Positions 26,090 through 26,723 of a stretch of DNA of 64,000 bases are shown one piece after another (position 1 is the stretch's first letter; every line of letters starts with the position of its first letter). The stretch is taken from NCBI GenBank assembly GCA_035691305.1, contig DASSJF010000041.1, forward strand, positions 62,001 through 126,000, given 5' to 3'. Source of the stretch: a bacterium. Its GTDB lineage: Bacteria; Sysuimicrobiota; Sysuimicrobiia; Sysuimicrobiales; Segetimicrobiaceae. The position numbers were made by a program, and so were the translations under genes. The notes beneath the pieces are model-generated. The model worked only from the letters and a program-made list of their open reading frames with translations. It had not been told where the DNA came from and did not search any database.

Positions 26090-26659
26090 CTACCTCGGCA
26101 CGCTGCAGAATCCCTGTGCTTCGATGCGGAACGCGTGGTTGAAGCGGCTGCGGAAGTTCTCGAACGCGATGTGCGCCGTCAGCTCCACGAGCTGGTCGGC
26201 GGAGAACTGCCCGCGCAGCGCGGCGAACAGCTCATCCGTCGTGTCGCGTCCGGTGATCGTCACCGCGTCCGCGTACGCGAGGACCAGCCGTTCGACCGGC
26301 GTGAACACCGGACTGGCCGCGTAGCCGGCGAGGTGCGCGAACTTCTCATCGTCGATGCCGGCCGCCTGTCCCGAGGCGGTGTTGATGTCCACTCAGAACG
26401 GGCAGCCGTTGAGCGACGCGACCCTGACGTAGACGAGGTACTTGAGGCCGGGCGGGATCAGCGCCGCCTCGCTCATCGCTTTGCTCCACGCCTTGTACGC
26501 GGTCAGCAGCGCGGGGTGGTGTGTCCACACCGTCGTCGTGTTCAGCGGGGTGCCGAACCGCCGCGTCTCTTCATCCAACATGCGGCGGACCGGCTCGGGC
26601 AGCGCGGCCGGATCCGGCGGGTCGAGACGGCTCGTTTTGTGCGCCTGCTCGGGGGGCAT
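26090..26659 (-). CDS. CMD/AhpD-like protein, probable selenoprotein (TGA-encoded residue 89)
   Basis: The reading frame runs from ATG 26659 (GGAGGT 5 bases upstream) to 26090 with a single internal TGA at 26395-26393. Both halves are typical carboxymuconolactone-decarboxylase/AhpD-fold sequence. The first ends VRVASLNGCPF and the second continues VDINTASG without a frameshift. In this family the position is the second Cys of the redox motif CxxC, so the TGA fits selenocysteine: C86-P-F-U89, a CxxU motif in a 189-residue protein. A hairpin at the distance of a bacterial SECIS element follows. The AhpD proton-relay Glu and His are not obvious here (Tyr74, Asn93). A TGC-to-TGA nonsense mutation is the alternative. 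Neighbours are proline dehydrogenase (64 bases upstream) and a binding protein. Confidence 0.8.
26362..26379 (-). promoter_or_regulatory. Candidate bacterial SECIS hairpin
   Basis: On the minus strand CCGCCT (26379-26374) and AGGCGG (26367-26362) pair perfectly around the six-base loop CGGGAC. Nineteen bases separate the TGA (26395-26393) from the loop, and the second loop base is G. Known bacterial SECIS elements place the apical loop roughly 16-37 bases after UGA, with a G among the first two loop bases. This was found by eye, without energy calculation; in a GC-rich gene a six-pair hairpin can also occur by chance. Confidence 0.6.
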
Positions 26660-26723
26660 GCGAGACCTCCGTACGCGTGTAGGCGGATCGCCGTACAGAC
26701 TTTCGGCGGCGCGCCGGCGGACC

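Follow-up and report, generated by a model that had tools for sequence, protein, structure and literature searches.

The question of a stop codon within a CMD/AhpD-fold gene

The window examined here (the whole 64 kb stretch of DNA that was analysed) contains a reverse-strand gene of the CMD/AhpD fold that harbours a single in-frame TGA, but is otherwise uninterrupted as far as its TAG stop. This raises the question of whether the gene is decayed, is in fact two genes, or is translated through the TGA. Ordinary annotation would split it or call it broken, whilst reading the codon as selenocysteine (Sec) rescues it. A previous sequence-only reading had favoured a selenoprotein, having observed that the TGA falls at the second redox Cys of an otherwise intact CMD-fold gene, that the two halves fit the family without a frameshift, and that a ribosome-binding site precedes the gene. 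Each of these observations was borne out: the TGA occupies residue 89, the CMD domain is found across it once the halves are joined, and a GGAGG element lies at the expected place (Table 1). The window gene, apparently broken by a stop codon, is almost certainly intact, with its TGA specifying Sec.

Table 1. Window positions of the features of the TGA-bearing CMD/AhpD-fold gene
Feature	Position	Strand	Remarks
Complete selenoprotein gene (predicted), 189 residues, NGCPF-U-VDIN and C-terminal QGFC	26090..26659	-	CMD/AhpD-fold, TGA read through
In-frame TGA, predicted Sec residue 89, second position of CxxC	26393..26395	-	TGA in 8/8 family copies (L022-L028, L034); 26 homologues farther off have Cys
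Ribosome-binding site GGAGG, 6 bases upstream of ATG at 26659	26666..26670	-	Direct sequence reading
TAG stop codon	26092-26090	-	Direct sequence reading
Cys86 codon; in CPFU, Cys86 presumably resolves Sec89	26402..26404	-	Invariant in 40 aligned homologues; presumed role
Cys185 codon (QGFC), third conserved Cys	26105..26107	-	In every aligned subfamily row reaching there; presumed role
Predicted bacterial SECIS hairpin, 6-bp stem CCGCCT/AGGCGG, loop CGGGAC (26373-26368)	26362..26379	-	Loop at +17 to +20 in 19/20 TGA-bearing CMD genes

Continuity of the coding frame

With its halves joined, the protein matches the Pfam CMD domain (PF02627) at 5.5e-12, with 46 bits against a gathering score of 23. 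This bears directly on the possibility of two short genes, the first encoding an 88-residue protein up to the TGA and the second a 100-residue protein from a GTG just downstream. In the window, the codon following the TGA is indeed GTG, which could serve as a start, and the list of open reading frames includes both pieces. This start is, however, not conserved (the next codon is ACG in L028 and L034), nor does the GTG have a ribosome-binding site upstream of it. Furthermore, the CMD domain spans the TGA, with neither half returning a Pfam CMD match when searched alone, and the redox residues would be separated from one another. An arrangement of two genes is, as such, very improbable.

Conservation of the TGA codon

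Twelve genomes of the bacterial family were sampled, seven of which, including the source genome, contain the gene, in eight copies. All eight display TGA at exactly this codon, with the other family copies being 65–79 % identical to the window gene. The second copy in one genome (G004; L034, G004:C20:10684-11215) is split by a frameshift near residue 81, just upstream of the CxxU motif, attributable either to faulty assembly or to incipient decay. Amongst phylum genomes outside of the family there is no match to the window gene at E ≤ 1e-20. Relatives near 40 % identity that possess the TGA comprise two family paralogues (CPFU-MD) and one acidobacterial gene (CPFU-VDVN), and none of the near relatives has a Cys codon at this site. 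The Cys form (CPFC-VDIN) is found in 26 more distant genes, nearly all of which are proteobacterial. Alignment of homologues, which the sequence-only reading had proposed as a check, accordingly gives TGA in all near relatives and Cys only farther off, which is the pattern by which selenoproteins are recognised: a UGA standing in frame at a conserved redox residue, with Cys there in homologues. SelA exceeds its cut-off in the acidobacterial genome whose gene has TGA, and in one of 14 genomes whose gene has Cys. In a tree of 55 genes the eight family copies form a starred clade. This sits within a larger clade of eleven (95/91), completed by the acidobacterial gene and the two paralogues, in which every member carries TGA; three changes of Sec label are required across the tree as a whole.

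Both halves of the gene are under purifying selection, with dN/dS values from six pairwise comparisons of 0.07–0.26 before the TGA and 0.13–0.30 after it. As these values are low on both sides, it is excluded that the gene has decayed or that its tail goes untranslated. Similarly, the recurrence of the same TGA in independent genomes excludes a sequencing error, one of the possible refutations that the sequence-only reading had itself named. A pseudogene, or an error of sequencing or assembly, would need only one base change, from TGC or TGT to TGA, and is the reading that ordinary annotation would choose. Set against this are not only the selection values but the many synonymous changes that surround the shared TGA in genomes at this level of divergence, and the position of the codon itself, which is that of the redox residue rather than a random one. 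A broken Cys codon is, therefore, exceedingly improbable.

Selenocysteine machinery in the source genome

The selenoprotein reading presupposes the means to insert Sec, and the 87 contigs of the source genome assembly were profile-searched for these components. A tRNA-Sec with a UCA anticodon was recovered at 68.7 bits (cut-off 47) and, near to it on contig C69, both SelB (337 bits) and SelA (552 bits), each above its cut-off. SelD is also present, at 393 bits (L017, C40:8198-9118), so that the whole set required of a bacterium making selenoproteins (tRNA-Sec, SelA, SelB and SelD) exists in this genome, as the sequence-only reading required. The SelD gene has an in-frame TGA of its own at the catalytic Sec position (VACAG-TGA-ASKLSPTDL), followed by a SECIS-like hairpin with its loop at +17, and SelD of the source genome is thus predicted to be a selenoprotein itself. 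More broadly, SelA exceeds its cut-off in 33 of the 43 phylum genomes searched.

The presence of a full Sec system that includes tRNA-Sec also speaks against genome-wide reassignment of TGA (e.g. to Trp or Gly), which would place an ordinary residue at the codon and would likewise keep the frame open. Stops of the called window genes are 26 TGA, 26 TAG and 5 TAA, and a scan of the 64 kb window for further TGA-interrupted genes revealed no other convincing case. Homologues, moreover, have Cys at this codon. Reassignment consequently has next to no likelihood.

A hairpin downstream of the TGA

In the window gene, a CCGCCT-CGGGAC-AGGCGG hairpin follows the TGA. The sequence-only reading had set it 19 bases after this codon, which is correct for the start of the loop but not for the stem, which begins at 13 bases. 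When the hairpin is considered alone, against sequences recoded synonymously for the same peptide, folding energy displays no signal (z = 0.04) and stem length is not exceptional (p = 0.13); the genes in this test are very GC-rich. As folding energy gave no signal for the window gene, stem length and place were assessed across many genes, using an uninterrupted stem of at least 6 bp as the threshold. Of the 20 CMD genes bearing a TGA, 19 possess such a stem, and in every one of these the loop begins at +17 to +20, with a G close to its start; the exception is in L046. By comparison, 2 of 32 Cys homologues have a stem of at least 6 bp, each at other places, and the background rate is 6.1 % of 18,123 window-gene codons.

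Since the 20 TGA genes fall into about seven subfamilies, the independent count is closer to six of seven, which at 6.1 % per trial corresponds to approximately 3.5e-7 (by our own arithmetic, and for trials that are not fully independent). Stem sequences differ amongst the six subfamilies, with three pair types occurring at each of the six stem positions. An Rfam search of the TGA site matched no SECIS family; what stands in favour of a SECIS element is that the hairpin is kept in place in relatives and recurs, with other stems, in TGA-bearing CMD genes. The significance of the window hairpin, with its G in a short apical loop, derives solely from this comparison with relatives, the single structure not being significant alone.

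Taken together, the Sec machinery, the TGA kept in relatives and the conserved hairpin uphold the earlier assignment, which withstood each of the computational refutations that it had itself named: the window gene very probably encodes a selenoprotein of the CMD/AhpD-like fold, in which UGA would be decoded as Sec89. Mechanistically, SelB, guided by the hairpin just 3′ of the UGA, would bring Sec-tRNA(Sec) to the ribosome, which would then read the codon as Sec. The gene offers clear comparative evidence of Sec in a lineage that is uncultured.

Other TGA-bearing CMD genes in the family

The source genome contains further CMD-fold genes with one in-frame TGA, at C82:174803-175279 (L038), C72:6576-7070 (L048) and C35:94879-95118. 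In the first two, the TGA is at the second CxxC position (RTCSY-U and IDCEY-U, respectively), and a hairpin lies where a SECIS element would be expected. The genome would thus encode at least three CMD selenoproteins, the window gene included, and perhaps four. Other family genomes possess several separate CxxU CMD subfamilies (NGCEY-U, NGCAR-U, RNCGY-U, IECEY-U and NGCPF-U-MD; loci L036, L046, L033, L042, L032, L044, L035 and L045), and most of these genes score below the cut-offs of named NCBIfam selenoprotein families. With several CMD genes whose TGA falls at the same redox position, this bacterial family is well suited to exploring why the fold favours selenium over sulfur.

Genomic context

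Peptide-binding proteins, M28 peptidases and proline dehydrogenase adjoin the gene only in the window and in the congeneric genome G001. Other family genomes have unrelated neighbours, such as ribonucleotide reductase, a TPP enzyme and PEP mutase. The setting beside proline dehydrogenase and peptide transport, to which the sequence-only reading had drawn attention, is hence not conserved beyond this one congeneric genome and is probably incidental. The exception is a PNPOx-like gene directly upstream of the TGA-bearing orthologue in two family genomes (L082:2435-3151 and L087:9197-9688). For the Cys form in Proteobacteria (CPFC-VDIN...QGFC), 11 of 26 loci have copper-resistance genes within about 3 kb, encoding CopA, CopB, P-type ATPase, MerR regulator or YHS proteins (L055, L056, L058, L060-L063, L067, L069, L071 and L075); DUF2231 proteins occur amongst these neighbours as well.

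Predicted structure and candidate function

An AlphaFold model built from 40 homologues is all-helical, with a mean pLDDT of 91.2. Amongst PDB structures, the peroxidase-related AhpD-core protein 2prr matches it best (TM 0.84, 23 % identity); PA0269/AhpD of Pseudomonas, 6k40, 3c1l and the debrominase Bmp8 come next. Residues invariant amongst the 40 aligned homologues are Leu75, Cys86, residue 89, Glu123 and Glu159. Nine TGA-form rows of the alignment extend to the QGFC cysteine, Cys185, and all nine have it, as do 26 of the 27 Cys-form rows, with the remaining row ending before the site; the acidobacterial TGA gene has no such third Cys.

The proton relay of AhpD, as in the Mycobacterium tuberculosis enzyme, consists of a Glu and a His around the CxxC. 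At these positions the window protein has Tyr74 and Asn93, and Cys forms have mostly Ser/Thr and Asn. The sequence-only reading had remarked on the missing Glu and His; both are indeed absent, but this is not special to the Sec form, as Cys homologues do not have them either. It follows that loss of the relay came before, or apart from, Sec. For the same reason, the idea that Sec compensates for the lost relay was rejected. Replacement of the relay residues by Tyr74 and Asn93 also renders true AhpD peroxidase chemistry doubtful.

The predicted fold places Sec89 and Cys86 where a helix begins, and the two would act there as a CxxU redox pair. Sec89 would make the attack, with a peroxide or a disulfide/electrophile being reduced, and Cys86 would resolve it as a selenenylsulfide; Cys185 may relay electrons supplied by an external thiol reductant. 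The most likely candidate function is that of a selenol-dependent peroxidase or disulfide enzyme, whilst peroxidase-like chemistry in particular is about as likely as not. A non-peroxidase role as a thiol-disulfide or metal-stress protein, which is compatible with the selenoprotein assignment, has a credible if lesser claim. The copper-resistance genes near 11 of the 26 Cys-form loci may suggest such a role, as may the missing proton relay; conversely, no copper-type genes are present in any Sec-form neighbourhood examined, and the nearest solved structures are named as peroxidase-related or antioxidant, most of them without proven activity.

The third conserved Cys offers a testable mechanistic idea. 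Tentatively, and with more doubt than confidence, the gene may represent a distinct CMD subfamily, CPF[U/C]VDIN plus QGFC, in which Sec89–Cys86 and Cys185 act as a three-residue electron relay, and which belongs to a set of CMD selenoprotein groups that all occur within one bacterial family. If true, small CMD redox enzymes of this lineage would make wide use of selenium, with chemistry unlike that of AhpD.

Comparison with known selenoproteins and structures

CMD-domain and AhpD-like selenoproteins with a CxxU motif have been known since 2005, when they featured amongst the families newly identified in the Sargasso Sea selenoproteome (PMC1088965); five groups of this type are listed in a review of 2026 (PMC13188914). 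The Sargasso Sea proteins resemble the window protein in their fold superfamily, in having Sec second in CxxU, and in a SECIS-like hairpin past the UGA. The window group differs from them in its C-terminal QGFC and in its CPFU-VDIN motif, in which Asn takes the place of the His usual in AhpD-like proteins. In a literature search of partial coverage, no paper describing this subfamily was found.

Amongst curated families the nearest is NCBIfam NF053654 (GroundWater_YciW, YciW-related (seleno)protein), which aligns to window residues 10–183 at 5.7e-47. The score of 159.8 bits is below the curated cut-off of 310, indicating a sister subfamily rather than a member; the proteobacterial Cys homologue L054 scores 138. 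For TIGR01926 (peroxid_rel; peroxidase-related, AhpD-like), the window protein reaches 35.9 bits against a cut-off of 81.8.

Of the solved structures, M. tuberculosis AhpD (1knc, 1gu9) has a CxxC redox pair and a related all-helical fold, but is a weak match to the window protein (TM about 0.5, E about 0.2), in which its catalytic Glu and His are absent. Much closer in fold are 2prr, 6k40, 3c1l, 2oyo and the debrominase Bmp8 (6ohi), which match over the whole length at TM 0.75–0.85; they are 19–23 % identical, none is described as a selenoprotein, and most have no proven activity. This kind of protein, a CMD/AhpD-like CxxU selenoprotein, is already known, and the window gene is a well-supported new relative.
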